64,000 nt of DNA from Hydractinia symbiolongicarpus (lineage: Eukaryota > Cnidaria > Hydrozoa > Anthoathecata > Hydractiniidae): NCBI RefSeq assembly GCF_029227915.1, contig NC_079875.1, positions 16,049,001-16,113,000 on the forward strand. Reading direction: 5' to 3'. The notes beneath the pieces are model-generated. The model ran no database searches and was not told where the DNA came from. It was given only the letters and a program-made list of their open reading frames with translations. Both the position numbers and the translations under genes were made by a program. Below, in pieces: positions 67 to 59,288 of this stretch (the stretch's first letter is position 1; every line of letters starts with the position of its first letter).

Positions 67-3000
67 AAGTGACGGTGCAAGTTTCATGTAAGCTTGACAG
101 AAAATATACATTCGATTTAACACACGGTAAAATTCCATTCGCAAAGTTGGAAGATGAAATACGTCACGAAGTAAGTTTTGTACGCACACCTATGTTTGTT
201 AAAGGGACTACGGAACTGCTGTTGGTTTTCGACTTTAGTGACTTACACGAAAGTCGAGCTGATGGCGCAGAAAAACAAAAATTGCTATTTTTTCGGCATG
301 TATGTAATTTACAGACTCGAACATCTAGAATTTTTATCCTCTACAGCCTCGGTCATGTTTTCATCCAGAATGAGTCTTGCTGAAATATTTCTTTGTAATA
401 ACTTTTCAAAAAAAAATATTGAACCAGCAAGGAAAGTGCGCTGATCTGTTCATTGTGCAAAACGCGGTTGCCGGATTTTTAATATGTGCGCGGGGTATAC
501 GGAATGTGCGCATGTTAACCGGTTCGTAGCCCCTTTAATGTCGTTACTAGCTACCTCTTGAATAAACCTTTATAATTGAAGTTAAGCAATTTGAGTGACT
601 GAACTGAAACTGGAAAACGTGAGCAACACAACTTATAGCTTTTCTTTTCCGTTGGTTCTTAATTCCTGTCACTTCTCTGTGATTACTAGATAATGAGCGA
701 CAACACTATTGGAAATGTGGAAAAGGTTACCTTGTTAAAAGCATCGTATGTTATTTCTTAAATTTTAAAATAGTGTTAGCATATAGCTAGGTTACATTCG
801 TGTGATAGTTTATATTGTATGATTTATACTCGTTTAATAACATATTTAACTAGTAATAAGCCTGTGAAAAAATCCACAGGAATTTGCCTGCAACTTTGTC
901 TTACAGACGTATGGTCAGGTATTATGATATAAATAGTCATCGCGTTTCGTATGTTTTTCCCGCATTAGTATTTTGTGCGTCTTTGCTTTCCTTTTGGCTT
1001 TAAGTAATAAAATTAGAACTGCAGGGTGTACGAAAAACTGCTGTGGGATGCCATTTTGAACATACAGACAAAATACAGATATAAGAGATAGTGATTTCTT
1101 TCATTCTATAAATAATTGGTTATTCTAGTATTGCTTTTGCAATGATTAAAGGCTTTTCAGGAAAAAGTAAAAATTCTATAAATGACTTACCTGAACTTGC
1201 GAAAATGTTATTTTTTATGAAACTGTTCCACGTGCGAAAAGATAACTTCCAGGGAGCTTTTACAGAGTTAAAGTTGTTTTATCAGTAGCGTATTATATTG
1301 TAGACCCGGAAGCATTGACGTGGTGTTCTCCATTGAATTCACGAAACTGAATAATTTTGAACTCTTGTCGCTACAAGACAGCATAGATGTGAATCATGCA
1401 ATCGGAAAAATACCCATCGTTCCAAATACCATAGCTTCATTTAAAGCTGATAAAGGTAATTAAATTAAAATTCTAGAATGTTCCTAGCATCATGAAACGG
1501 AAATGGTTGTAATAATTCCATATGTTTTACAGAAAAAAAGTTTTTTGTGCGGAAGATATCAGATATTCTTGTAATAACATTTTACGAAAAATATTTTTGA
1601 AAAATATTTCAAATTAATTTTATATCGTTATGACTTTGCTCTCAATACAAGCTTAATACTTAATTATCTCAGTACTTGATAAAGAAAAAATGACGATTTT
1701 GAGCACTTTACCGTAAATCAATTAAATTCCACGCTTTATCAATTTTATACAATTTTAAATAAAGTGGTCTTTCCGTCTTTTTATTTAAAATTAACCCATA
1801 GCAGCAAATACAGAACGTTATATTTTTATAAACAAGAAAATTGCAAATGCCAAATCTTTTCACCATAGTTGCTGATATATAATCCTTCCCCCAAGATATC
1901 TTAAAAAATTAAAGAGTTAGCAGAGTATATTCAATTTTTAGTTCCTACCTCACCGCCAAGCAATATCACAATACGAACTTCATCGCCAAATTCGCTAACC
2001 ATATTATGGAAAGACGTCAACATACGTGGTTTGGAGATAACATCTTATATCCTGTTCTATCGAGAAAAATCCAAGGTCTCAAGCATGTATGATACATTGA
2101 GTACGAACCAAACATCCGCGGTTCTTTCTGGTTTAAAGGCTGGAACAAGATATGTGGTGAGAATATTGGCCAGCACCAAATCAGGAAATGGTATCGCCTC
2201 CAAGGAAATGGTTGTTCAAACAGAAGAAGATGGTAGGAATACTAGTAGCATGCTTGTGATTATTGACTGTTAACAAATTTTTGAAAATTTGGCTTTATTT
2301 ATTTTAAAAATAATATTTCGTCGGAAAACATTATTATCGAACGAAATATTTCGTTCGTACATATGTTGTTGGAATAAATTTTTCCTAGCTTAGAGGATAT
2401 TCGATACTGTTTTCTTTAAAAAAATAAACGTTTTTGCTTGAGCCTAAAATCATTTTCTATATTTCTTGTTTATAAAAATATAAAAATTATACCACAAATG
2501 TTAGACCTAAAACATTTTTGGCAATTGGTGCATTTATATGCGACAATTAAAAGAATTCTTCTTCACTTTTGGCGCAATTTATAAATATTTTAATGACGAC
2601 TTTCAAATCATTGCTCTTATATATAACACTGGTCATGGTTGATGTTCTCAAATATGTTTTAGTTCCAAGTCTTACGCCTGGTAATGTTACCGGTATCAGC
2701 ATATCTTTTGACAAGATATTCATCCAATGGAAAAGAGTGGACGAAGGTGCCATGAATGGAGTTTTAATTGGTTATGATATAATTCTTGATGAAAGTATGA
2801 ACAGGAAGAAAATATTTTTCCCGCATGAAAATACGAGTGTTATATTAGACAAGTTAAAGGGTGATACTCAATATGTTATCTCGGTGTGTGCGGTCACGAA
2901 GGCTGGCTCCGGACCGTGTGGAGTTACACAAGTGCGAACAAAAACTTCAGGTTTGTCGTTGAAGGATATTTATCAATCTTTACTTGTTTACTGTTCATGT

Positions 3001-6000
3001 TGGTAACTCCTCACTTCAGAAACTAAGTTCTAATTTTCGAGTTATTATATTGGCACATCTCGAATAAATTTTTACTGCAATTAAAATAATTTGAGTTTAG
3101 TAAAAATACCAGAAAAACAAGTCATCGTGTTTCTTGAGCTTTGTACTAAATCCTATCCTTATCATCCCTACATTACTAAATTAAAAAAAAAACAGCACAT
3201 GAGGTTTTTGTCTTACACTATGAATCTGGGTAACTTCACAAGTAAACACATGATTCGCTAGAAGTGTGTCGTAATAACAAGAGTAAAAACTACGATGTGC
3301 ACCATAAAACAATGCACTAGTCCGTGCCTTAAAAAGGTTTCACAGATTGAAGAAATGAATAGTAATTGCATTCATTTTTATACCTTAGCACCAACTGAAT
3401 CGCCGATGAATCTTACAGTAGTGAGGTACTTACACAATAGCCTTTCAATACAGTGGAGACCAATACCAGCATATGCATTGAACGGAGAACTCATCGGTTA
3501 TAAGGTACTATATAAGCCGATGGATACTCACGAAAAGGCCACAAGGTATTTAAGACTAGATGTTGCACCATGGCAGACATATGCGAAGTTAAATATTTTG
3601 TTACCTAATTCAAAGTACATGATACATGTGCTAGGTATTAACGCATACGGGGATGGCATTGGAGCATCAGTTACTGCCAGTAAGTTTTCGTTTAAACTTT
3701 CCTATGGCAGACACTACGTATTTTTTTCTCCTAATAAGATCGTGAAGGAATTATATTGACTAAATTTTTAAAACTGATTACTTTAGAAACTTGTAAATGT
3801 CCAGAAGTTATCTACAGTAACTATTACATAACTAAGCCATATACAACTCGTCTAAGAATGTTTTTTGATGGAATATTTCCCACAGTTATAAGAGATATGT
3901 TCACATTTGCTTGTGGGTTTTGTCCTGATGCCAACCAGAACACAACTACTGTTGACTTGACGTCAAATGGTAAATATGAATATGCCAGTAAATCAACGCT
4001 AGAGAGAGTTGTGGAAGATATTGATGATTTTACGCAATTAAGTTTCCCACTTTCAGCAAGTGTGAAAGCCAAAGATTCGATGGACATGGTTTACGTACCT
4101 ATATTGAAATATCCGGGTTCTTTATTTATTATTCGCCAGTACGACATACATGAACACGTGATGCACGTTGTGGTACAAATTCTTCAACTATGGCCCCTGT
4201 TTGTGATAAATTTTATGTTGATCGTGTTTGTGGGAGCTGCCATTTGGCTTTTGGTGAGTTTTCACAGTTATGTTGTTAATTTTCAGAATGTGATTAAAGT
4301 TGAGCAACAACATTAAAAAAGTCGTATTTATTTCATACTTTTCAGGATGTAACAGGTAGTGGAAAAAATCATTTTTCCTTAAACAAATGGGATGGTATAA
4401 GAGAGGGTTGGTACTATGCCTATGTTACACAAACTACCATAGGGTATGTCTGCGTGAATCTTTTTTGTTTGCTACTTTATTTTTGACACCATTCTCGTTG
4501 CCGTGGCGTCGTGGTAGTATTAGGTACAAAATGCGACACTTGAATACTCGCTTTCTTAACAGTTATTTTTAAGAAAAGCTTTCTTTTCTAGAACGTTCTG
4601 AAAATGTTTGCAAGAGATGTTGTGCCAGTTGGTTGTTAATGTGTAGCGGAAGGGGTAAAATGGCGCATTATGAAGGCAACTCAATTAAGAAAAATAAAAA
4701 TAGAAAAGCGAAGAGTGTTTTATTGATCAGTGTATTGTGGTGCAAGATTATATTACCACCACAAGGAACAAAATAATATTTACGTTACCCTTTGCGGCCT
4801 TAACCAATGTTTTTCTGGTGATATTGACACACAAGTGTGTGTTTTTGTTTAGATATGGTGACTTTACCCCCAAGAGGTTTCTTTCGAGGTGTTTTGCGAT
4901 CGGGTGGATGTTTCTAAGCATTATTATGTCATCAGTGTTGTTAGTAGGCGCACTTACCACAGCTTTTACCACTTCTGCGTTGGAGGAGGTACATACCATA
5001 TATGGAAGGAAGGTAATTTTTTCTCTCAAAGCTTGTTAAAAATTTTAGGATATAAAAGTGGTAAACTGGGCGCTTATAAAAAACGAAAGACAATGGAAAA
5101 TGGAGCACTAAGGTAGAGTGTCACTTTTTTTAAACTTTATTTTTTAGATTGCTGCGTTGTCTGGCTCTTTTGAAGAAAAGTTAGCTACGTTGAGAAATGG
5201 AAAGATTAACAAAAGTACGGTCAATTATTCTATTTATAAACTCATGCCTGCTAAAGTATTATGCCATATGCCTTATTATATATTAATAAATTATATATTT
5301 TTTGCATGGAGGAAATGCAGTGTTAAAGCCGGCAAATCAATTCTTGAAATTTTTAAGGGTGGGTGAGTGATAGGAAATCAATGTGAATAGTCGTAGATCT
5401 ACATTGTTCTAGGTGTTGTTTTTGCATAACAAACATTTCAAAAGTCGTTTAAACCAAAATAAGGGTGGGGCATGGCTTTTTGCCCAACCCTTTGTCTTCC
5501 CCGGATTGTGTCTTTGTATTTGTATCTATGAATACTACCGGTTAATTCTTATTCTATTTAAACATTCAAATATACTACGACCTTATTCAGGAAACAAAAA
5601 CAAAAACAATTTGATAATAAAAAATGAGAGTATTCAATCTGCCTCCCTAAAATACTTCCTCGAAAACTAGCATCCACCTTCCAAGTCGGCTTATAAGAAT
5701 TAAAATAAATAATCTAAGAACTAAAAACCGATTGAAATAACCTTATTTTCTAGATAAAACTTATTCAACAGTATCATCTTTGGTTAATTCACTTGTTAAC
5801 CATGAAGTCGATGGTATTCTATTAGATGCTTATACTTCAGGCTCATACAAATCCTTTTTAAAACAAGCTGGTGTTCAAGAAACGAGCTTAGTGGAATTTC
5901 CAAGAACTTATGGTGTTGTATTATCTGGTGGCCTAGCACGAGTAAATGAGGAAGTCCGTGATTATGTAGCTTCAAATGAAGACAAAATATTAAAAGTTCT

Positions 6001-7639
6001 GGAAATGTATACTACGAAACTTAACGTAAGTTCTCTTCTTTTATGTCAAATCAAAATACGTAATGATTAATAAATTATCCACTAACACACTGGCGTCTGA
6101 CACGAGTTATAGAAATACAGGGCAAAGTGTATTATTGCAAAATTAAAAATTTAAACATAAACAGATGCTGGATGATGTGGAACCGATTATCAAATATCAT
6201 TCAGTTGAGCTTGGCTGAGTTGAATATCATTAAAGCAAGACTAAATAAATTCGATATTCAATTTCACTGAATCCAGTATATGTTTTATAATTCTCCCAAA
6301 ATAAGAGAAAAGAAAAAAAGATTACTGCTTGTGAAACAAGTCTTTCACAACAAAGCTTAACAATGAAACATTTAACATATCAACAACATTATTTTTTACC
6401 GGCGTTTTCCTTAATTGAGTTTATTTCGGAATTATAGAATTGCTTCTCCTTGGAGTCTATAAAAAGATGAAGGATTGTTAAGTATTCGATATCGAATATC
6501 TAAAAATAACCGACAGAGCAATTTGCTAACGGGTGAATGATAATAACATATATAACATACGTTGTAATGGCACTATAATTGCTAATACGTGCTTTTATTT
6601 TCTATTTATTCCAGCCAAAAGAAGCGAAACCTATCAAATCCTTATTCGATCCTCACTCTGAGTTTTTGAAACGATCACTTGTCATCTTATCGTGTTTATT
6701 GTTCCTTTTTCTGATGTTTGGTTGTTTTATTTGGTTTTGTTTCTTAAGAAAAAGAGGTAGTAACTTCAAAATAGAACCAGAAGGTATGCATAATATATTT
6801 TTGCGTTTTGGTAGACAAGTTAAATAACAGTCGCATCTTAATTTTTTGACTAAGTTGTGTAACAGTTCTTTTATTATAGAAATTCCCGCTTGGAACAGGC
6901 ATACAAAACACAAGTATTTTAAGAGTTGTAAGCAAAAACTATAAGACTAGGTGCAAGACAGTGTGAAATCTATAGACAACGGTCAGCTGCAGCAAGGTTG
7001 ATCTAAAATATATGGCATTTGTTATTTGTAGCTAGAAAGTGTAGCATCACACTGTTTTGGCCTTAAAACGGACAATATGCAGCTATGATTACGGAGAAGA
7101 CTAGGCTAGGAGAAGACTAACCCTTAAAAAATCAACAGGAATTAATAAAAACATATCAAGTTTACTATTTAGGCAAGAATTAGTTCGTGTTTTCTTAAAA
7201 CGCGTGTCAGACCGATGACATGTATTATCAAATAAAGAGAAGAGGTAATCATCCTCGTAGAGTTTCGTTCCTGTATAAGACTTACTTTTTGTTCCTTTTA
7301 ATTTTTAAGCATTGTTTCAACTTTTCGTCAAGATAAAAATACAGTCTCTTCTCCGTATTTTTAGAACCAAACGAATTAGAGAATTTGAAGACATCAACAA
7401 ATCATTTTATAAAAGATTTTTACACTTCATTTACCAACAAGGTTAGACAAGTGTACCAACGACATGAGCTAGAGAGGATTAAATTACGGTTTGATCGTGG
7501 TGCAAGTAGCTTGCGTAACATAAACACTTTTTCACCAAACAAGCGGTATAAAACAAAAACAAAGACCTCTGATCGTAATGTATCTACCAATGGGAAAATA
7601 GAACTCAAGTTAGACGAAATCAAATACACAGCATGTTGA
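67..7639 (+). CDS. SEA-FN3 ionotropic-glutamate-receptor-like channel with K+ selectivity filter (5' partial)
   Basis: Predicted cell-surface ligand-gated channel. Exons: 67-170, 690-745, 1304-1455, 1942-2232, 2663-2950, 3389-3679, 3787-4253, 4346-4443, 4853-5012, 5148-5214, 5754-6025, 6615-6783, 7365-7639. All junctions are GT-AG, phases agree throughout, and they give 895 residues; earlier exons lie outside the window. Order: SEA domain (about 1-103, with PGSIDVVF like the SEA GS-hydrophobic motif); FN3 domains at about 104-200, 201-296 and 297-393; S1 lobe; M1 (FVINFMLIVFVGAAIWLL); pore; M3 (IIMSSVLLVGALTTAF); S2 lobe; M4 (VILSCLLFLFLMFGCFIWF); basic cytoplasmic tail. The junction 4443/4853 creates TTIGYGDFTPK, the K+-channel filter. 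Metazoan glutamate receptors normally lack this; bacterial GluR0 has it. The fold and filter are read directly; K+ conduction and ligand are inferred. Confidence 0.85.
850..935 (-). repeat. Diverged copy of the short hairpin-ended interspersed repeat
   Basis: It carries the CCTGTGAAAAAATCCACAGG hairpin followed by CAGACGTAT and TATTATGATATAAA, matching the order in the copies at 29119 and 35198. It lies in an intron of the channel gene. Confidence 0.5.
6880..6944 (+). CDS. Alternative terminal exon of the channel gene
   Basis: This lies between the M4 exon (donor at 6784) and the long tail exon (start 7365). A pyrimidine-rich tract ending in TTATAG precedes position 6880. Like the acceptor at 7365, it accepts a phase-1 exon. 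Joined to the M4 exon it adds about 21 residues (EIPAWNRHTKHKYFKSC...) and stops at 6942-6944, whereas the distal exon adds 91. The gene could therefore make short-tail and long-tail channels, both starting with Glu. It is supported only by splice-site quality and phase. Confidence 0.45.
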
Positions 7640-13885: not shown

Positions 13886-14115
13886 TCTTACAGTAATGAG
13901 GTACTGACAAAATAGCCTTTCACTACAGGGTCTTCCCTGTAGTGAAAGGCTATTTTGTCAACACCAGGATATGCATTAAATGGTTTCAATATTACTATAT
14001 TGGCCGATGGATACTCACAAAAGTGCCACAACGTATTTCAAAATAGGTGTTGTGACATGGCTGACATATAAAAAGTTAGATATTTTTTTACCCAACTCAA
14101 AGTATCTGATATACT
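13886..14115 (+). pseudogene. Decayed copy of the third FN3 exon of the channel gene
   Basis: The order of matching segments follows the functional exon at 3389-3679: CTTACAGTA-TGAGGTAC, AATAGCCTTTCA, CAGCATATGCATTGAA, GCCGATGGATACTCAC, ACATGGCTGACATAT and CCAACTCAAAGTA. The copy has frameshifts, stops and a small inverted duplication inside it. It lies directly before sequence matching the channel gene's 3' UTR, so the duplicated block once included channel sequence whose intervening exons were lost. Confidence 0.75.
13905..13960. repeat. Perfect 26-bp inverted repeat with 4-base loop
   Basis: The arms 13905-13930 and 13935-13960 are exact reverse complements around TCTT. The arm sequence is part of the FN3 exon relic, so exon sequence was copied back in inverted orientation, as expected from fold-back template switching. 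Confidence 0.92.
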
Positions 14116-25697: not shown

Positions 25698-28600
25698 TCA
25701 GTTTGGACAAGCACCTTTGTCAATTGAAATATCATCAATTGCACGATCTGCCAATTTGCCCACAGCAATTGCATAGAAACGAACCTAAAGACAGATGTAA
25801 ATTCTAAAGATATTGAAATGTCCTCACTTAACTGACGGTAATGATTGGATTTGAGGTAATTTAACGAAAATAAATAAGTAAAAAACAAACAAAATAAATA
25901 TCGAATAATATGTGAAGAGATTTATACCTCGTAAGCAACATCTGGAGAAGAGGTCAAATTGATTTGTGTTTGGTGCCATTTATCATTAGGCAAACTTGAG
26001 TTTCTTGTAAAAAGAACAACTTCAATTTCCCTAATAATTTGTACTACCCAAAATGAACCCCACTTAATCGGAACTGCGGATGTTTCATTCATTTGTAACC
26101 AAAATGTCAAACATCCAGCGCCATTAACTGGTGGTAAGTTTGGCATAGCAAAATAGGATTCAGAAGAAGAATATTTTGTTGTTGTATCAGGTGGGCCAGA
26201 CGATGATTCAAAATATACGTAGTATCCTGAAGAGTTACCTAGAGGAATGAAGTAAGTTATATCTCACTGTGATGTACGAATAATAAACTGTTATCAATTT
26301 TTATTTTCATTAATAATTTACTTTTTAACCAGGATAGCTTTTTCAGCTCCTTATTGTACTGCTATCGACGAAGGGGGCTTAATGCATTTCAAGCTTTCTT
26401 TTTGAACTCCCAAAATGGTACAAACACAGAAATGAATTAACTACACAACTGCCTAAAATATCAGTTCTAAACGCTAATAAGAATGATCGATTCACTGGCA
26501 TTACTCAGTCGGGGTTTGAACCCACAACCTTCTGCGCTGAAAGCGAGTGTCCAGCCGCAAGGATGTATAACAACGTACCTAATGTATGATCATAGGATGG
26601 ACCAGTATAAGGAGAAGTAGTAGGGCCGTTGTTTATTCTCCATCTATTGTCATCTCTGCCGGGAAATCGAAAAAAACAGCTTGTCGCTCTGTCTGGGGCA
26701 TTTTCAAAAGAGCATGCTAAATTAAAAAAACTACAACACTTAATAAACAAACAAAGGAAATATAAATAACTTTATGATCAAAAGATCTGGAGAAAATAAC
26801 ACAAGCCAACATGAAAGCGATGTAATAACATTGTCTAAGCAAGAACAATGACACTGATGAAACCATTTAAATGTGAAATTGCGTCGGACAAATTCGTAGG
26901 AAATCATTCAAATTTTAAAAAGTTCTAAATACATATAATCATAAATTTTTATTTGCCTACGTTTACTACTTTTGTGGAACAAAAAACTGTATTGTTCTTT
27001 TTAGTAAGTTTAATAAAAGTTTAATAAAATCTAAATGTTGGACAGGACTAAAGGTAGTACGGCGTATGTTAAGTACCCTTAAAAATTAATGCATTCTCTA
27101 CCTGCGCAACCTTGTGTTGCGCATGGCTTTTTGTAGGATTCAAGAACCCCCATTCCACTACCAATATCACATTCATTGCCACCAAAGAGAGGACTTGGAT
27201 TAGTACATGTTCTGCTTCTTATGTTTGTACCAGTACCACAAGTAGCTGAACAAGCGGTTATAGACCATCTTGACCAGCCACCATGAACTAAAAGCATAAA
27301 AGGTAAAATAGCATGTGATGTTTACCGTAAATAAACGATAGAGTTTATAGCATAAAAAAGGACAAGAAATTCGCTCCAATTTTGAAGACTTTGATTATTA
27401 TCTAATTTCGCAATATTTTGACAGCGCGGTCGATGTATTAAATATCTATGTATTCAACCGCATTAACTGGGAGTTTTGGTCAAAATAATTTCTTTTTTTT
27501 AATAATTTTTAGTGCTTAAACATTAGAAATTTAAGTGCTGAAGATTGCTTTCTGAAGGACAGCTAGACACAATCAGGACATTTTCTTAAGCGTTCAACGA
27601 AATTCCATTATGCTAAGGTGTCGTAACCATTACTTATATTGGATGGCGTGCAAAGTGAAGAAAGCCAATTTAAAAAAAAATGAAAAAGCATTCGAAAAGC
27701 ATAGGTATTCAAATTAACCAGATTACTCGAATTCCACTATGCCATGACAAAGGATGACCTACGCTATACAAATTGTTTAACTATTGCATCCCATGCGATA
27801 TGTTGACTATTATCGCAAGTTTTCTTAATATTGTTAAAATAGTTTTCATTAAGATATAAAATAATAATAAAAGGGAGTCTAACTAGAAATTCAAGTTATT
27901 AACTATGATTTCCCTTGTTATTTGTTAGAACATTTGTGTTTTAAAAGGAAATATATTGCTATGTATGCTGATATCTCCTAAAAATAGCGTCACTACTATT
28001 GCAAAACAGGTAAAGTTTGAGTTTTGTATTGCTGCTCAAAAGTAAGCGCAACGGTAATTTAACGTCATATAGATGGATTGTTGTGAACTCGTATTAAAGC
28101 TTACTTTTCATATTATAAGTTTTCCCCCGCCTATCCGGAAATGGAAACTACACTTTTTAGTTTGTAAAATTAGAAAACCTGGACATCTTGGGCATTGAGC
28201 AGTGTCTGTTTCAATAAGTGCTCTCTTATTGTTCAGATCTAAACACATGCTGCCATTTCCAATTGGTGCAGGATGGTTGCACGTTCTGTTTCTTTCATAT
28301 GTTTCATTACCACAAGTTTGCGGACAGCTGGTGATATTAAACCATTCGCTCCAACCACCTTGGCCTAAGAATATATTAGAACTTAAATATATGTCAATTC
28401 TCATACTAATTACATAGTATAATTGGAAAGTACACTTACGGTAACACGGTGTTGTACCACAATATCTCTTTTCTTCTTCTTCTAGCCCCATTGTACCGTT
28501 AGTTCGAGTGCAATTACCCCCTCCAAACTCAGGTGGAGGATTGTGGCATTCTCTTAAACGGAACTGGGTCCCATTGTCGCATGTTTTAGAACATTGCGTC

Positions 28601-30126
28601 CAATTCGACCATTGAGACCAGTTACCATGAACTAAGAAATAATTTATGATAATAACTCAAAATGTGCCGCCAAATCTTGTCTTTTTATTGCTATCTGTGC
28701 GTTTAACTTTTTTCACAGTACCTTTACACAGTACCATTTTTACTTCGTAACATTGCATACACAAACCTTGAAGAAAACCCAACAGACACAGGATAATTTA
28801 AAATCGCATATGAAATTGCCTTTAATTGTAGAATATTATGCTACAAAAGGATAGATTATGCAACATCCTTGACTTGCACTTACCAGGACAAGGAATGATC
28901 ACTGGACACGGTCCGATCATTGTCGCGCTACCAGAACAGTTGTCGAACTGCAAAATGGCGTAAATGAGCTTAATTTTAAAATAGGATTATTGTCCTAGGG
29001 CGATAATGGGTATCAGTAACAAAGGACGTTAACTATTTGAGCTATTATGTACGTACAAGCACATTAATTTTGAACTTTCTTAAAATAAGCAATAACATGT
29101 CAAGAAATATAAAGAACTAGTCGTTAGCCCGTGGAAAAATCCACGGGTTCGCCCGTCGCAGCTAAGCTACCATTTTGCGTGACAGACAGACGGACGGACG
29201 GACAGACGTATACGGGCATTATAATATAAATGATAATACTATTTATAATGGACGTTGCATACCACCTGCTTGAAGTTCCAGGTATATTTGGTTACCAGTT
29301 CTAATTTTATCAACGAAAGTACTTCGGTTAAGGCACCCCGTGGCCTGAGTAAAATTAAACACAAAATTTCTCTCGTCTTTTCTGTTTCTGCGAGAAATGA
29401 GAAATTGGAATAAATTGTTTTGATATCTAGGATGTCACACTTAGACAAATTAATTTCACAAAAGTATACCAACCAGGACCAGTGCATTGTCCAGCAACCA
29501 ATGTACCGTCATCAATTGCAATATCAGAATTGTATCCAAATCCTTTAACTGCTTTAAAGAGGAACTAAATGGGAAAAAAATGTTAACTAATTGTGAGAAT
29601 GATAATACAGTTGAGTTAAATCTGTCAAAAAGGATGTGTGTCTGTGAAGAATTTTTAGAAATATCTTAGACAGCATAAATGTTATTCTAATATTGTTTTC
29701 TGTTCGGGGATTCGATTTGAGAATCTAATTGGCGCGTAAAAAATCTATTTTTATGAGATATTGTTATATATTTGTTATATCTTTTATCTTATATATTACA
29801 TATTACATATTAAGTTCTTACAGTCCTGTAGTCGGATAATTGTGTAGCTACAATAGCTGCAATTTGATAATTGTACAAGCTTCATATTGACAGAGAAATT
29901 TTATATTATTGCCTAACAAAGTCGCAACCAAAAAAAAAAGAATATACAACAGTTTCTATTAGATTACTTACTGACATATTTGTACCACCAACAACAACAT
30001 CAACATCAATGTTAATATTCATCCAATGTGATGCATTGTTTGTCAGCACTCCGTAGTTTTCCCAAAGAAGGGTTTGCGAATATGTAAGGCCATTGACCAG
30101 ATAAACATGTAATGAACCCATATAGC
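25698..30126 (-). pseudogene. Truncated duplicate of the TSP1/MAM gene
   Basis: Exon copies, 5' to 3' on the minus strand: 30126-29972 (end part of a MAM exon, cut at the duplication border), 29564-29474, 28946-28884 (TSP1 exon whose 5' two thirds are deleted with its acceptor), 28631-28440, 28364-28179, 27287-27102, 26716-26579, 26238-25928, 25784-25698. No signal-peptide exon or promoter is present. Transcription could reach it only by read-through past the stop codon and 3' end of the intact gene. It could supply alternative 3' exons to that gene, but the intact copy's own stop makes this unnecessary. An assembly artefact is a serious alternative. Confidence 0.75.
29119..29230 (-). repeat. 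Hairpin-ended interspersed repeat (copy in duplication copy 1)
   Basis: It begins with the hairpin CCCGTGGAAAAATCCACGGG, followed by CCCGTCGCAGCTAAGCTACC and the GACAGACAGACGGACGG stretch. It lies in an intron and is inverted relative to the copy at 19490. Confidence 0.75.
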
Positions 30127-30950: not shown

Positions 30951-33900
30951 TCAGTTTGGACAAGCACCTTTGTCAATTGAAATATCATCAATTGCACGAT
31001 CTGCCAATTTGCCCACAGCAATTGCATAGAAACGAACCTAAAGACAGATGTAAATTCTAAAGATATTGAAATGTCCTCACTTAACTGACGGTAATGATTG
31101 GATTTGAGGTAATTTAACGAAAATAAATAAGTAAAAAACAAACAAAATAAATATCGAATAATATGTGAAGAGATTTATACCTCGTAAGCAACATCTGGAG
31201 AAGAGGTCAAATTGATTTGTGTTTGGTGCCATTTATCATTAGGCAAACTTGAGTTTCTTGTAAAAAGAACAACTTCAATTTCCCTAATAATTTGTACTAC
31301 CCAAAATGAACCCCACTTAATCGGAACTGCGGATGTTTCATTCATTTGTAACCAAAATGTCAAACATCCAGCGCCATTAACTGGTGGTAAGTTTGGCATA
31401 GCAAAATAGGATTCAGAAGAAGAATATTTTGTTGTTGTATCAGGTGGGCCAGACGATGATTCAAAATATACGTAGTATCCTGAAGAGTTACCTAGAGGAA
31501 TGAAGTAAGTTATATCTCACTGTGATGTACGAATAATAAACTGTTATCAATTTTTATTTTCATTAATAATTTACTTTTTAACCAGGATAGCTTTTTCAGC
31601 TCCTTATTGTACTGCTATCGACGAAGGGGGCTTAATGCATTTCAAGCTTTCTTTTTGAACTCCCAAAATGGTACAAACACAGAAATGAATTAACTACACA
31701 ACTGCCTAAAATATCAGTTCTAAACGCTAATAAGAATGATCGATTCACTGGCATTACTCAGTCGGGGTTTGAACCCACAACCTTCTGCGCTGAAAGCGAG
31801 TGTCCAGCCGCAAGGATGTATAACAACGTACCTAATGTATGATCATAGGATGGACCAGTATAAGGAGAAGTAGTAGGGCCGTTGTTTATTCTCCATCTAT
31901 TGTCATCTCTGCCGGGAAATCGAAAAAAACAGCTTGTCGCTCTGTCTGGGGCATTTTCAAAAGAGCATGCTAAATTAAAAAAACTACAACACTTAATAAA
32001 CAAACAAAGGAAATATAAATAACTTTATGATCAAAAGATCTGGAGAAAATAACACAAGCCAACATGAAAGCGATGTAATAACATTGTCTAAGCAAGAACA
32101 ATGACACTGATGAAACCATTTAAATGTGAAATTGCGTCGGACAAATTCGTAGGAAATCATTCAAATTTTAAAAAGTTCTAAATACATATAATCATAAATT
32201 TTTATTTGCCTACGTTTACTACTTTTGTGGAACAAAAAACTGTATTGTTCTTTTTAGTAAGTTTAATAAAAGTTTAATAAAATCTAAATGTTGGACAGGA
32301 CTAAAGGTAGTACGGCGTATGTTAAGTACCCTTAAAAATTAATGCATTCTCTACCTGCGCAACCTTGTGTTGCGCATGGCTTTTTGTAGGATTCAAGAAC
32401 CCCCATTCCACTACCAATATCACATTCATTGCCACCAAAGAGAGGACTTGGATTAGTACATGTTCTGCTTCTTATGTTTGTACCAGTACCACAAGTAGCT
32501 GAACAAGCGGTTATAGACCATCTTGACCAGCCACCATGAACTAAAAGCATAAAAGGTAAAATAGCATGTGATGTTTACCGTAAATAAACGATAGAGTTTA
32601 TAGCATAAAAAAGGACAAGAAATTCGCTCCAATTTTGAAGACTTTGATTATTATCTAATTTCGCAATATTTTGACAGCGCGGTCGATGTATTAAATATCT
32701 ATGTATTCAACCGCATTAACTGGGAGTTTTGGTCAAAATAATTTCTTTTTTTTAATAATTTTTAGTGCTTAAACATTAGAAATTTAAGTGCTGAAGATTG
32801 CTTTCTGAAGGACAGCTAGACACAATCAGGACATTTTCTTAAGCGTTCAACGAAATTCCATTATGCTAAGGTGTCGTAACCATTACTTATATTGGATGGC
32901 GTGCAAAGTGAAGAAAGCCAATTTAAAAAAAAATGAAAAAGCATTCGAAAAGCATAGGTATTCAAATTAACCAGATTACTCGAATTCCACTATGCCATGA
33001 CAAAGGATGACCTACGCTATACAAATTGTTTAACTATTGCATCCCATGCGATATGTTGACTATTATCGCAAGTTTTCTTAATATTGTTAAAATAGTTTTC
33101 ATTAAGATATAAAATAATAATAAAAGGGAGTCTAACTAGAAATTCAAGTTATTAACTATGATTTCCCTTGTTATTTGTTAGAACATTTGTGTTTTAAAAG
33201 GAAATATATTGCTATGTATGCTGATATCTCCTAAAAATAGCGTCACTACTATTGCAAAACAGGTAAAGTTTGAGTTTTGTATTGCTGCTCAAAAGTAAGC
33301 GCAACGGTAATTTAACGTCATATAGATGGATTGTTGTGAACTCGTATTAAAGCTTACTTTTCATATTATAAGTTTTCCCCCGCCTATCCGGAAATGGAAA
33401 CTACACTTTTTAGTTTGTAAAATTAGAAAACCTGGACATCTTGGGCATTGAGCAGTGTCTGTTTCAATAAGTGCTCTCTTATTGTTCAGATCTAAACACA
33501 TGCTGCCATTTCCAATTGGTGCAGGATGGTTGCACGTTCTGTTTCTTTCATATGTTTCATTACCACAAGTTTGCGGACAGCTGGTGATATTAAACCATTC
33601 GCTCCAACCACCTTGGCCTAAGAATATATTAGAACTTAAATATATGTCAATTCTCATACTAATTACATAGTATAATTGGAAAGTACACTTACGGTAACAC
33701 GGTGTTGTACCACAATATCTCTTTTCTTCTTCTTCTAGCCCCATTGTACCGTTAGTTCGAGTGCAATTACCCCCTCCAAACTCAGGTGGAGGATTGTGGC
33801 ATTCTCTTAAACGGAACTGGGTCCCATTGTCGCATGTTTTAGAACATTGCGTCCAATTCGACCATTGAGACCAGTTACCATGAACTAAGAAATAATTTAT

Positions 33901-36900
33901 GATAATAACTCAAAATGTGCCGCCAAATCTTGTCTTTTTATTGCTATCTGTGCGTTTAACTTTTTTCACAGTACCTTTACACAGTACCATTTTTACTTCG
34001 TAACATTGCATACACAAACCTTGAAGAAAACCCAACAGACACAGGATAATTTAAAATCGCATATGAAATTGCCTTTAATTGTAGAATATTATGCTACAAA
34101 AGGATAGATTATGCAACATCCTTGACTTGCACTTACCAGGACAAGGAATGATCACTGGACACGGTCCGATCATTGTCGCGCTACCAGAACAGTTGTCGCC
34201 GTTATTAGTTGCTTCGGGCATGGTACAATTTCTGGATCTTGATCTTGTACCACCTGGACCACAATCAACCGAACACGCACCCCAACTTTCCCATAGAGCC
34301 CAATTTCCATGCACTGTAGATAAGAGAATATAACTGTACTATTATGTTTTCGTGCTGTAATCGTACTAAGGCTTAGCCTATGGGTGGAGGTTCGGGGGTT
34401 GGGGTTGCGGTGGAGGAAAATGTACAAGCACCAAAACGCCTTTTATGATTGGTAGTAAGTCAAAAAATTACGCAATTTCTGGAACAATAACTGTAACATG
34501 ACAATTAAGTATCATGTCTCAAATGATGACTATCTGCAATAACTTTTGTTGACTTTGATAGTAACACTGAGAATATTGAATTGTTATATTGATATTATAA
34601 ATGGTATTGTAATAATATAGCCGTGCTCCAATTTAATGAGAAGCCGATTAGACTTAGATCAGAAAAATTTGATGCATGTTAGCAGAGATGGTGTAGTGGT
34701 AGCGCATTCGAATTGTAATCATAAGTTTTTAAGTTCGAGTCCCCACGTCGACGCACTTTAAATATAGTGTTGGCAGACCATAAGTGCAATCTACTGACTG
34801 CTAACTGACTTGTACGGCAAGCAAGTAGGTGAGAGCAATGCTATGCCTAACTTTGGCGGTAATGTAACTTAGTTACAGTCGGATGGAAGAGACGGCCAGC
34901 CATTTGATTGGGCTTCTCAAGGACATTAAAACATCCCGTTACGTACATGTTTTTAATAAGATGTTGTGTTTATTTACCTTTGTATTACTTTGGATACAAA
35001 TTTCACTTAGTCAAAACATGTAAAAACTGCAAAATGGCGTAAATGAGCTTAATTTTAAAATAGGATTATTGTCCTAGGGCGATAATGGGTATCAGTAACA
35101 AAGGACGTTAACTATTTGAGCTATTATGTACGTACAAGCACATTAATTTTGAACTTTCTTAAAATAAGCAATAACATGTCAAGAAATATAAAGAACTAGT
35201 CGTTAGCCCGTGGAAAAATCCACGGGTTCGCCCGTCGCAGCTAAGCTACCATTTTGCGTGACAGACAGACGGACGGACGGACAGACGTATACGGGCATTA
35301 TAATATAAATGATAATACTATTTATAATGGACGTTGCATACCACCTGCTTGAAGTTCCAGGTATATTTGGTTACCAGTTCTAATTTTATCAACGAAAGTA
35401 CTTCGGTTAAGGCACCCCGTGGCCTGAGTAAAATTAAACACAAAATTTCTCTCGTCTTTTCTGTTTCTGCGAGAAATGAGAAATTGGAATAAATTGTTTT
35501 GATATCTAGGATGTCACACTTAGACAAATTAATTTCACAAAAGTATACCAACCAGGACCAGTGCATTGTCCAGCAACCAATGTACCGTCATCAATTGCAA
35601 TATCAGAATTGTATCCAAATCCTTTAACTGCTTTAAAGAGGAACTAAATGGGAAAAAAATGTTAACTAATTGTGAGAATGATAATACAGTTGAGTTAAAT
35701 CTGTCAAAAAGGATGTGTGTCTGTGAAGAATTTTTAGAAATATCTTAGACAGCATAAATGTTATTCTAATATTGTTTTCTGTTCGGGGATTCGATTTGAG
35801 AATCTAATTGGCGCGTAAAAAATCTATTTTTATGAGATATTGTTATATATTTGTTATATCTTTTATCTTATATATTACATATTACATATTAAGTTCTTAC
35901 AGTCCTGTAGTCGGATAATTGTGTAGCTACAATAGCTGCAATTTGATAATTGTACAAGCTTCATATTGACAGAGAAATTTTATATTATTGCCTAACAAAG
36001 TCGCAACCAAAAAAAAAAGAATATACAACAGTTTCTATTAGATTACTTACTGACATATTTGTACCACCAACAACAACATCAACATCAATGTTAATATTCA
36101 TCCAATGTGATGCATTGTTTGTCAGCACTCCGTAGTTTTCCCAAAGAAGGGTTTGCGAATATGTAAGGCCATTGACCAGATAAACATGTAATGAACCCAT
36201 ATAGCGTGGATAGCGAGTGTACATTGATACGTAAAATGAAAAGCAATACTGACTTTGCATAGGAACAAACATGAAGGTGGCTAGATAAGCCGCATGACCC
36301 TTAGCTCGATAGCTAGCCTCGTAATAAGCGAAATGTCCACAACCTTAAAACAAAGTATGAATGTCATGTTTGGGGCTACTAGAAACATGTAAACACAATT
36401 ATTGACTGACTAAGTAGGGAGAAGAAGAAGAAGAAGAAGAGAAAGAAAAGGAAGAAGAAGAACTTACATGTTTGAGTAGGGTCACGCTACGTCTATTTTC
36501 TTCAATATTTATTTCTGATATCGTTTTTACTATTGATTTCACCTATTTCTATTCTTCTCAGAGTTTTTTGCTTAGTTTTTTTACAGTCTATATACTTACA
36601 ATATATGAAATACTGGCAATACCTGATGGAAAAGTATGATCTACATCTGGTCCGGTACTTGGCGAAGGAGTGTAGGTGTCAATCACCCATTGTCCAGTTT
36701 GATCTGATAGCCAGCATGGAGTTTCAAAATTGCAATCGAACTGACTGACTTTAATTGGACATTCTGAAAGGCGACAACCACCATTACAATTCTCTGTATT
36801 TGTTAAGTTGCCTTGGCAATTGTTGTTTGAACACGTTCTTGCTTGAGTTCGGTATCCGACACCACAGGTTCCTTGGCAAGTTGTCCATCTGGACCAAGAC

Positions 36901-55732: not shown

Positions 55733-57664
55733 ATCTGCATAGATTTTGATTAAGAAATAGGTCAGTTGAGTGACTTCAACACAAGATGTTTATGGCGCCT
55801 AACACTGTAAAGATACAGACTAACAGCTCTGACAGTCAGGGCATTCCTGTATAGCCATACTTAATCAGTAATAATTCTTCTTTACACTTTTTTTTTTCAA
55901 TCTCTTTTTGCTTTAGTCCCGAATTTCAATTTTACTGGCTCTTTTTTCAGATTTATCAGAAAGATAAAAATTATCAATTTCAACACTGAAGTCAACATTT
56001 ATTTCATTGAAATCATCCTCAGTGTGAGTGTCACTTTAATTGTCATCAGTTAAATTCACAATAATATTGACAATCTCTTAAAATAGATAAAACATGCTCG
56101 ATGAGTAACAGCAGGAAACAGGAAAAAGATTAACAGCTTTCTTACGCGTGGTCATTAGCCTTAAAAAAGTAACTTTAGCGTTAAGCCTGTTACCAAAATG
56201 AAAACAGTTTGACGAGTTGTAATTAATTTTTTGAATAGATGAAACAGAGGATAGTGAATTTGTTCATCTTTTCCTTTTTATAGTGGCTTGTTTAATTAGG
56301 AGTTGTGCATTACGAGTTGTGCGTTGATTGATATTAAAACTGCGGGTTAAAAGTTGCGAATTGAAAATTACGAGTTGATTATAATTTTTTCAATTTCATG
56401 CCATGAATCTACGAATTGGTACATAAAATCAACGCGTTCTTACACAAATTGCACGAGTTGGTTTTAAAACGCAGGTTGCAGAAAAAGTGCGAGTTAAAAA
56501 ATTAAAATGCGAGTTGAAAAATCTTTAAGTGCAAGCAGAATATTAAAAGTGCAAATTCGATTATAAAATTTAAAGTACGAGTTGGACATAAGTGGTAATT
56601 TAAAAAAGAAAGAAAGAATGGTGGTAGCTTTACGCGAACACTTATCAAACACAGAACTTACTTCTTCATAGTCAGGGTTGTTATTTTTATTTTATTTTTT
56701 GAGAAACTTTCATTTAATTCGCACTTTTGCAACTGAAAACTATTAAAACAATGGTGAATTGCACTTTTATTAAATGCAGCATTTCGTAACTCTCGTAACG
56801 GGTAACTCGTAACTCGTATACAGCCTCAGCTTGCGATGTTAATTCGTTGACAGAATCCTATTTCTTAAGCTTGTACCTCTTTTGTCAAGGTGTGGACTAT
56901 TAATTCTATATACAAGAATTTAATTCTATTCCGTTAAGAATAACGATTAACTATCTATGTAACGAGCTATTTAAGTTTAGTAAAGTAGCCAATTGTTGAC
57001 ATAACAAACAAATTGTGAAAGATTTATTGTTTAGAATTAAAATATTTACATCATGCTAACCTACAACTAAAGGGCTACAAAATAACCCAAATTACGATCT
57101 CCATCATGGATGTTACTCTCTATCCTCGCACATTTTAAATAATATTGTGTAATGACCAGACCACCACTTAGAAGGTCGAGCTACAAAAAATTATAGCCCC
57201 TTTTTGCACCAACATAGACAATCTGTTAATAATTAAATACTTTCTCTATATGGTTTGCAACTTTGTTAATTTTAGTTTTTTCTAGAAATAGATACATTTT
57301 TTTAGTATTTTTTAGTGCGGTGAAATATGCTGCGGTCTGGAAAGTATAAGTTATAACTTTAAAATAAAAAGATTATTTTGACTAGCCAAGCCAAGACAAC
57401 ATGAAAGACTGTATTTCGTAGAAAATACTATGTTTAGTAGCCCTAAAAAGGTAATTAATACCCTCTCAAATGTTTTTAAAATCATTATTTCTGCGACAGT
57501 ACGGTCTTTCAAAGTAACTTATGCAGTTCAGTTTTCTTATGCTTAATTTGAACCATAATCTTGGAACTTCTTATTGATTAAGATAACCTACTGAATATCA
57601 AAATTGTGAGGGTCACCGTTGTCAGTTTGGTGATTTCTTTAGCAAAATTCATTATTACACAACT
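55733..57664. other. Gene-free stretch before the octamer array
   Basis: AT-rich. 56280-56830 contains scattered repeats of GAGTTG/CGAGTTG-type words (ACGAGTTG, GCGAGTTGAAAA, TACGAGTTGG), suggesting an old degenerate tandem repeat. No gene seen. Confidence 0.4.
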
Positions 57665-58125
57665 GCAAGGCTACAATGCTACAAGGCTACAAGGCTACAA
57701 GGCTACAAGGCTACAAGGCTACAAGGCTACAAGGCTACAAGGCTACAAGGCTACAAGGCTACAAGGCTACAAGGCTACAAGGCTACAAGGCTACAAGGCT
57801 ACAAGGCTACAAGGCTACAAGGCTACAAGGCTACAAGGCTACAAGGCTACAAGGCTACAAGGCTACAAGGCTACAAGGCTACAAGGCTACAAGGCTACAA
57901 GGCTACAAGGCTACAAGGCTACAAGGCTACAAGGCTACAAGGCTACAAGGCTACAAGGCTACAAGGCTACAAGGCTACAAGGCTACAAGGCTACAAGGCT
58001 ACAAGGCTACAAGGCTACAAGGCTACAAGGCTACAAGGCTACAAGGCTACAAGGCTACAAGGCTACAAGGCTACAAGGCTACAAGGCTACAAGGCTACAA
58101 GGCTACAAGGCTACAAGGCTACAAG
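57665..58125 (+). repeat. (CTACAAGG)n octanucleotide satellite
   Basis: About 56 uninterrupted copies of CTACAAGG from 57679, with imperfect units before that. Eight is not a multiple of three, so every forward frame reads the same eight-residue peptide repeat (GYKATRLQ) with no stop. The long open frame 57606-58160 is thus explained by the repeat. Confidence 0.97.
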
Positions 58126-58185
58126 AAGGAGTTTTTATCACGGAAGTTACAATCTCATAAACATCTAACAACAACTTGTACTTAA

Positions 58186-58589: not shown

Positions 58590-59288
58590 TTATTCTTCAA
58601 CCACATGTTCAACTGAAAGTCTGACAAGAAATTTAAAAGCTTCTTGTATACCATCATTCTCTTGTGCAGAAACATCAAAGTGTGGGTAATCGCGTAACAC
58701 TCCCTTTTCTTGCACGTGCGTTATGGCTTGTTTTAAATCGTTCTTATTCCCTAAAATGATGATGGGAATTTTCACCTTTTTTATTTTATGAATATCAGAT
58801 ATTAAATCGATCAATTTTATATAGCTTTGTCTGCTGTCCTTTGAGTATACCAATACAAATGCGTCAGTTTCCACAATCTTTTGTTTATATCTTTCTACAG
58901 ACCGTCTTCGGAACAACGTATCAGCAATGGACAGATTTAGTTCGTACTGTCTTACTTTTTCTTTCTTATTCTGCGGCGCTAAAAACACGCTACTTTCAAA
59001 TTCCTCGTTTTCATTTTTGATTTTGTTTGTTCCAAGCATGCTATCTGCGACATATCTGAAACATATTGAAGACTTGCCAACGTTGTGATCTCCAAGCATT
59101 AATATTTTTATTTTACCACAACATTCAATACCCATTCCAATCGATCCATTACTGGAACCTCTTGAGCTGCGTCGTGAAGATCTTCTTCTTTCACGCATCT
59201 TGTTAAATAATGTCCCGACTACCATTTTTACTTTTTCTATACAATCAAGGACAATCAAGGAGCACATGTAATATACTAGTGATGACAT
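58590..59288 (-). CDS. Intronless Ras-like small GTPase with altered switch II
   Basis: One exon of 232 codons. Starts at Met 22 (59225) or Met 31 are also possible; the first ATG has A at -3. A basic, Ser/Arg-rich N-terminus (MRERRRSSRRSSRGSS) precedes the G domain. G1 is GDHNVGKS (66-73), G4 NKND (181-184), G5 SAQ (207-209). Where Ras proteins have DTAGQE, this reads SIADTLFRRRS (120-130), lacking the Gly and the catalytic Gln, so GTP hydrolysis is probably slow or absent. The C-terminus (VEHVVEE) has no CAAX box, so it is not prenylated in the usual way. The N-terminal extension, altered G3 and missing CAAX recall RGK-type GTPases, but the RGK C-terminal motif is absent. Confidence 0.85.
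   Translation of the reverse strand: MSSLVYYMCSLIVLDCIEKVKMVVGTLFNKMRERRRSSRRSSRGSSNGSIGMGIECCGKIKILMLGDHNVGKSSICFRYVADSMLGTNKIKNENEEFESSVFLAPQNKKEKVRQYELNLSIADTLFRRRSVERYKQKIVETDAFVLVYSKDSRQSYIKLIDLISDIHKIKKVKIPIIILGNKNDLKQAITHVQEKGVLRDYPHFDVSAQENDGIQEAFKFLVRLSVEHVVEE

Follow-up and report, generated by a model that had tools for sequence, protein, structure and literature searches.

The 64,000-nucleotide stretch of the Hydractinia symbiolongicarpus genome analysed here (the window; C1:16,049,001-16,113,000, from a 480.9-Mb genome in 76 contigs) carries on its plus strand, at 67-7639, a gene that we predict to encode an animal ionotropic glutamate receptor (iGluR) resembling bacterial GluR0, with a potassium-channel (K+) filter in its pore and with FN3 and likely TSP1 domains in its ectodomain. 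In this reading, to which we assign a probability of about 0.6, the K+ pore is likely opened by ligand-driven closure of a clamshell formed by the S1 and S2 lobes. Hydractinia has been described as a model organism, with a published H. symbiolongicarpus assembly of 483 Mb in 15 chromosomes (PMC10411563).

The filter spans an exon junction, as the first-pass annotation of this DNA had proposed. Once spliced, junction 4443/4853 reads VTQTTIGYGDFTPK; because intron 4444-4852 interrupts the GYGD glycine codon, the TxGYGD filter (here TTIGYGD) is present only after splicing. The exons on either side are in frame with GT-AG boundaries, and the Pfam profile Ion_trans_2 matches across the junction above its cut-off (E 1.3e-8). 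GYGD lies at residue 582 and is flanked by hydrophobic helices at 531-549 (M1), 595-613 (M3) and 769-787 (M4), the first of which is overlapped by a weaker hydrophobic window at 518-536. A second protein of the same species, P0001 (annotated as LOC130634855 isoform X2), has the identical domain order, with 45% identity over 98% of residues 394-804, and bears TQTTLGYGDITPR at the equivalent place between M1 and M3, where its filter, TTLGYGD, is uninterrupted. It is the only full-length relative among the matches listed from a 5.8-billion-protein database, the others being K+ pores; two of the homologue searches scored no more than the 7999 and 7992 candidates with the most words in common, and distant cnidarian relatives can therefore be missed. 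The viral contigs searched held no relative. The idea that P0001 is an orthologue from another species was dropped, as it comes from H. symbiolongicarpus itself; the evidence suggests a paralogue on the same chromosome as the window gene, and tblastn did not find its locus within C1:15,950,001-16,193,000.

The likeness to iGluRs extends beyond the filter. A profile of the two hydrozoan cores (window and P0001) was compared with two cyanobacterial GluR0 genes (L001 and L002) and eight other bacterial iGluR-like proteins (from 8 of 22 plasmid records), the E-values given here being those of single comparisons of shallow profiles. Against all ten proteins the cores matched with a probability of 98.9 and E 1.6e-17 over 176 columns, running from M1 into S2, and against the eight that have no K+ filter the match persisted, in order from M1 to S2, at E 1.1e-11 (score 88.6, 173 columns). 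The S2 lobe by itself scored 38.6 against all ten (E 5.6e-5), above every one of 100 column shuffles (at most 25.9), the reversed profile (26.1) and six other pieces (8.1-14.5), and it scored 35.9 on the eight filter-less proteins. At the level of sequence, these comparisons establish iGluR-type homology for the pore and S2, and together with the flanking helices they bear out the earlier view that the layout is of iGluR type and includes an M4, and that the K+ filter lies between M1 and M3.

Gene model and ectodomain

The gene is predicted to comprise 13 exons (67-7639) that join in frame through 12 GT-AG introns with fitting phases to encode 895 amino acids, the sole stop being the TGA at 7637-7639; the previous count of 13 junctions also includes the acceptor that precedes 67. 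A SEA-like stretch is encoded by the exons at 67-170 (preceded by AG and followed by GT, in frame, with the gene continuing 5' of the window), 690-745 (GT-AG, matching phases) and 1304-1455 (GT-AG, with a tblastn match of 39.6% to P0001 46-93). There follow three FN3 domains at 1942-2232, 2663-2950 and 3389-3679, each a phase 1-1 exon, as is usual for shuffled extracellular modules, and all three are recovered by Pfam fn3 (E 3.2e-36, three stretches, the best at 107-193 in the first). About 6 kb 3' of the gene, at 13887-14114 on the plus strand, the third FN3 exon recurs in degenerate form (46% identity, with stops).

The membrane core begins at 3787-4253 with an S1-like lobe, so called by position, and M1 (41.9% identity to P0001). 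The exon at 4346-4443 (GT-AG) encodes the M1-P linker, the pore helix and the start of the filter (TTIG), splicing bringing its GG to the A of the split glycine codon, and 4853-5012 supplies the remainder (YGDFTP) and an M3 with a profile match to bacterial iGluR-like M3. S2, with its profile match to the bacterial lobes, starts at 5148-5214, where identity to P0001 is 77% in an alignment belonging to a set that misplaced short pieces, and continues at 5754-6025, which includes an aspartate codon (5825-5827) aligned with an aspartate of P0001. A linker and the hydrophobic M4 helix occupy 6615-6783, and the last exon, 7365-7639, encodes a predicted cytoplasmic tail and the stop. We favour this long last exon because its tail motif, ER-KLR-DRGASSLR, occurs in P0001 too. 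A shorter final exon containing a stop may exist as an alternative (6880-6944, plus strand); it has an acceptor and an open frame, and no relative backs it. All exons of the model lie on the plus strand.

The ectodomain is probably longer than the window reveals. The SEA domain named in the first-pass annotation was dropped, because neither the window protein nor P0001 gave a Pfam match to SEA at E<=10 in searches whose HMMER filters discard most weak matches. Upstream of the window edge, five phase 1-1 exons lie on the same strand as the gene (L019 5893-6117, 6523-6756, 7166-7321, 7738-7905 and 8474-8644) and match TSP_1 in four stretches (Pfam, E 6.7e-33). The last of them, a TSP1 exon, joins exon 67-170 in frame, and the five read stop-free into it, giving 1215 codons including one terminal stop, with the first codon incomplete. 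Four lectin-like candidate exons were tested further upstream; two gave good matches to Lectin_C (C1:16040902-16041261, E 1.5e-14; C1:16041585-16041980, E 1e-13), one a weak match (E 0.0043) and one none. The 7.5 kb scanned contained a single signal-peptide-like start, MTAIIWLLIIIPFCAA, at C1:16034376-16034424, which connects in frame with the two lectin exons. As a region, L019:5893-8644 and C1:16034376-16044230 hold TSP1, one cysteine-rich and C-type-lectin exons plus this start, on the same strand as the channel gene and in matching phase. It is likely from these reading frames that the TSP1 exons extend the channel gene beyond the window edge, and likely too that the lectin exons belong to it. 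The earlier view that SEA and three FN3 domains form the whole amino-terminal part in place of the usual domain is thus at least in part a window-edge effect, since in-frame TSP1 exons adjoin upstream.

It could be argued that the upstream TSP1 and lectin exons constitute a separate gene and that the channel gene begins near the SEA-like stretch, considering that isoform X2 of P0001 begins inside this very stretch and that no transcript links the upstream exons to the channel exons. We regard such a separation as unlikely, given the uninterrupted in-frame run of five same-strand exons into 67-170; moreover, isoform X2 has no signal peptide by eye, and the name 'X2' implies a further isoform.

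Other observations in the window concern its neighbouring sequence. A gene on the minus strand with TSP1-like repeats (tblastn matches to TSP1) holds a tandem duplication, in which the frames 25925-26263 and 31178-31516, and likewise 28111-28656 and 33364-33909, lie 5253 bases apart and are identical by eye. Several copies of a small arginine- and leucine-rich reading frame occur on both strands at about 8.1-8.7, 12.5-12.9, 14.9-15.6 and 18.2-18.5 kb and form a local gene family, at least two members of which have a secreted-type start by eye. At 57582-58182 (plus strand) there is a tandem repeat with the unit LQGYKATR, open in all three frames, and at 58593-59288 (minus strand) a reading frame that resembles a Ras-type small GTPase by eye. 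Rfam and tRNA scans of the window gave no match.

Is the core an ionotropic glutamate receptor?

Several results weigh against assigning the core to the iGluRs, and a number of them speak for a plain two-helix K+ pore to which a third helix and an unrelated extracellular module have been joined, with flanks that form no iGluR clamshell. While Ion_trans_2 exceeds its cut-off in the window protein, Lig_chan falls below it (E 0.16, with 6.1e-6 in P0001), and the PDB sequence matches are K+ channels only. M1-P-M3 scores 76.4 against K+-channel modules, near its scores against all ten bacterial proteins (90.7) and the two GluR0 proteins (90.8); the K+ modules score 69.2 against GluR0. S1 has no detectable homology: by itself it reached a non-significant 16.4 against the bacterial lobes (shuffle mean 13.5, maximum 19.2; reversed 16.9), and S1 and S2 joined and searched alone gave no match. 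When S1 was considered in context, the alignment entered it with one profile set, as it did for 2 of 100 S1 shuffles, at a score of 105.2 that is no gain over the shuffle mean of 105.4; with the other profile set the alignment stopped short of S1, which 3 of 100 shuffles entered. The window protein's M1-P-M3 taken singly scores only 34.7 on the eight filter-less proteins, and the match of GluA2 alone to the hydrozoan core is confined to 47 pore columns (E 0.0049). Both AlphaFold models of P0001 are poor, with mean pLDDT of 43.8 and 38.5. In the second, residues 631-680 show an alpha/beta pattern (block means near 58-67), but GluR0 was already part of the alignment behind it, so that it proves nothing.

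Against a plain K+ pore stands the ordered match from M1 to S2 that the filter-less proteins yield. On these eight proteins the hydrozoan M1-P-M3 alone scores 50.8 (P0001 singly 54.8), as against 31.3 for six K+-channel modules (from P0002 and P0004) pooled and at most 29.5 for any one of them, and the S2 lobe, as described above, exceeds all of its shuffles. We therefore consider the fusion of a simple K+ pore to unrelated flanks distinctly improbable. When the M1-S2 region of P0001 was searched against the plasmids by tblastn, the highest coverage (83%, E 0.01) fell to a Rhizobium 'transporter substrate-binding domain' protein at the same locus as L003; this protein and its duplicate record, both iGluR-like, are the only 2 of 194 plasmid records above 80% coverage. 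The 15 matches listed include the four annotated K+ channels, with coverage of 36-56%, as well as two unannotated places with 40% coverage and a marginally better E (0.009). GluA2 as a query found no match in the bacterial genomes. In a 13-row tree of M1-S2, which has GluA2 on a long branch, the hydrozoan pair groups with the two GluR0 proteins at 92/90, a branch that is under the tree tool's starred level and whose grouping is aided by the filter columns. Of the S1-M1-P-M3-S2-M4 layout in the first-pass annotation, the pore and S2 are upheld by profile matches and M4 by its hydrophobic helix, whereas S1, whose homology gains no support from the sequence statistics, is assigned by position.

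The distribution of charges is mostly consistent with S1 and S2 lying outside and the filter mouth inside, when M4 and the positive P-M3 linker are taken together. That linker has three positive and zero negative charges, the M1-P linker is neutral and RKR occurs just after M4; the stretch preceding M4 is also positive (5 to 3), contrary to the positive-inside rule.

Putative mechanism and ligand

In amino-acid-gated iGluRs, an arginine in S1 binds the alpha-carboxylate of the ligand. The corresponding column has arginine in all ten bacterial rows, asparagine in P0001 and serine in the window protein, in an S1 alignment that is itself not well supported, so the amino-acid-binding arginine seems to be absent here. 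The acidic residue of S2, by comparison, is aspartate in both hydrozoan proteins and in 9 of 10 bacterial rows, and the serine or threonine of the S2 turn is kept, as in 10 of 10 bacterial rows. Because the S1 arginine is apparently absent, the agonist is likely to be something other than glutamate.

By analogy with GluR0, we propose that four subunits would assemble around an inverted pore with its filter mouth toward the cytoplasm. The ligand would close the S1-S2 clamshell, and closure of the outer lobes would pull M3 open. Judging from the filter, K+ would then exit and hyperpolarise the membrane, quieting the cell in response to an outside signal. The topology of GluR0 has been described as opposite to that of KcsA and like that of animal receptors (PMC13099474), and fusion of the GluA1 ligand-binding domain to a viral K+ pore is reported to give a glutamate-gated K+ channel (PMC6385376), which backs such a mechanism in principle.

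With its TSP1, FN3 and probably lectin domains, the ectodomain likely serves to anchor the channel to the matrix or to neighbouring cells. A bolder and, in our estimate, rather doubtful extension is that the receptor is inhibitory and gated by contact, its lectin, TSP1 and FN3 modules sensing matrix, a neighbouring cell or a microbe and so opening the GluR0-type K+ pore. If this is true, animals would possess a channel family that converts adhesion directly into hyperpolarisation. Delta receptors have been argued to keep a pore that conducts rarely or never, and an iGluR-like adhesion or scaffold receptor of that kind would suit the large adhesive ectodomain and the apparently missing S1 arginine, but we hold it to be quite improbable, since TT-GYGD is kept in both of the 45%-identical paralogues, which argues for selection on conduction.

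Relation to known receptors

K+-filter iGluRs as such are already known, from bacterial GluR0 and rotifer AvGluR1; the first-pass annotation, whose interpretation our analysis partly supports, cited only the bacterial case. What appears to be new is the adhesion-type ectodomain and the occurrence in a hydrozoan, which has at least two paralogues of this GluR0/AvGluR1-type receptor with a K+ filter. In the literature searched, in which subscription journals are thinly covered, we found neither a cnidarian K+-filter iGluR nor an iGluR fused to FN3, TSP1 or lectin domains, and rotifer AvGluR1 is the only such receptor outside bacteria named in the descriptions available (PMC12332018, PMC12226733). 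K+-filter glutamate receptors have been proposed as a link from K+ channels to excitatory receptors (PMC12332018, PMC6385376). With another animal example, this one from a cnidarian, one could test whether such channels were retained, regained or acquired in animals, and what it is that they sense.

Canonical animal iGluRs, for example GluA2, have the same S1-M1-P-M3-S2-M4 order and a short pore match, but carry no K+ filter and have a different amino-terminal domain. Polycystin-1-type proteins likewise place a long adhesive ectodomain with lectin-type modules on a channel-type membrane part, which is of another fold.

The closest animal counterpart by description, rather than by sequence, comes from the rotifer Adineta vaga, whose AvGluR1 combines the eukaryotic iGluR layout with a K+ filter and is reported to be K+-selective and nearer to bacterial receptors (PMC12332018, PMC12226733). 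AvGluR1 is activated by amino acids (PMC12226733), whereas the amino-acid site of the hydrozoan protein seems altered, and those descriptions, as far as available, mention neither FN3 nor TSP1. Among bacteria, where a group of iGluRs with a K+-like filter has been described (PMC2950845), the nearest counterpart is GluR0 of Synechocystis and its cyanobacterial kin. Although GluR0 lacks an M4, a tail and adhesion domains and retains the S1 arginine that is apparently absent in the hydrozoan protein, it has the K+ filter between M1 and M3 and an S2 lobe with the conserved aspartate and G-S/T turn, and it is the nearest neighbour of the hydrozoan pair in the tree.

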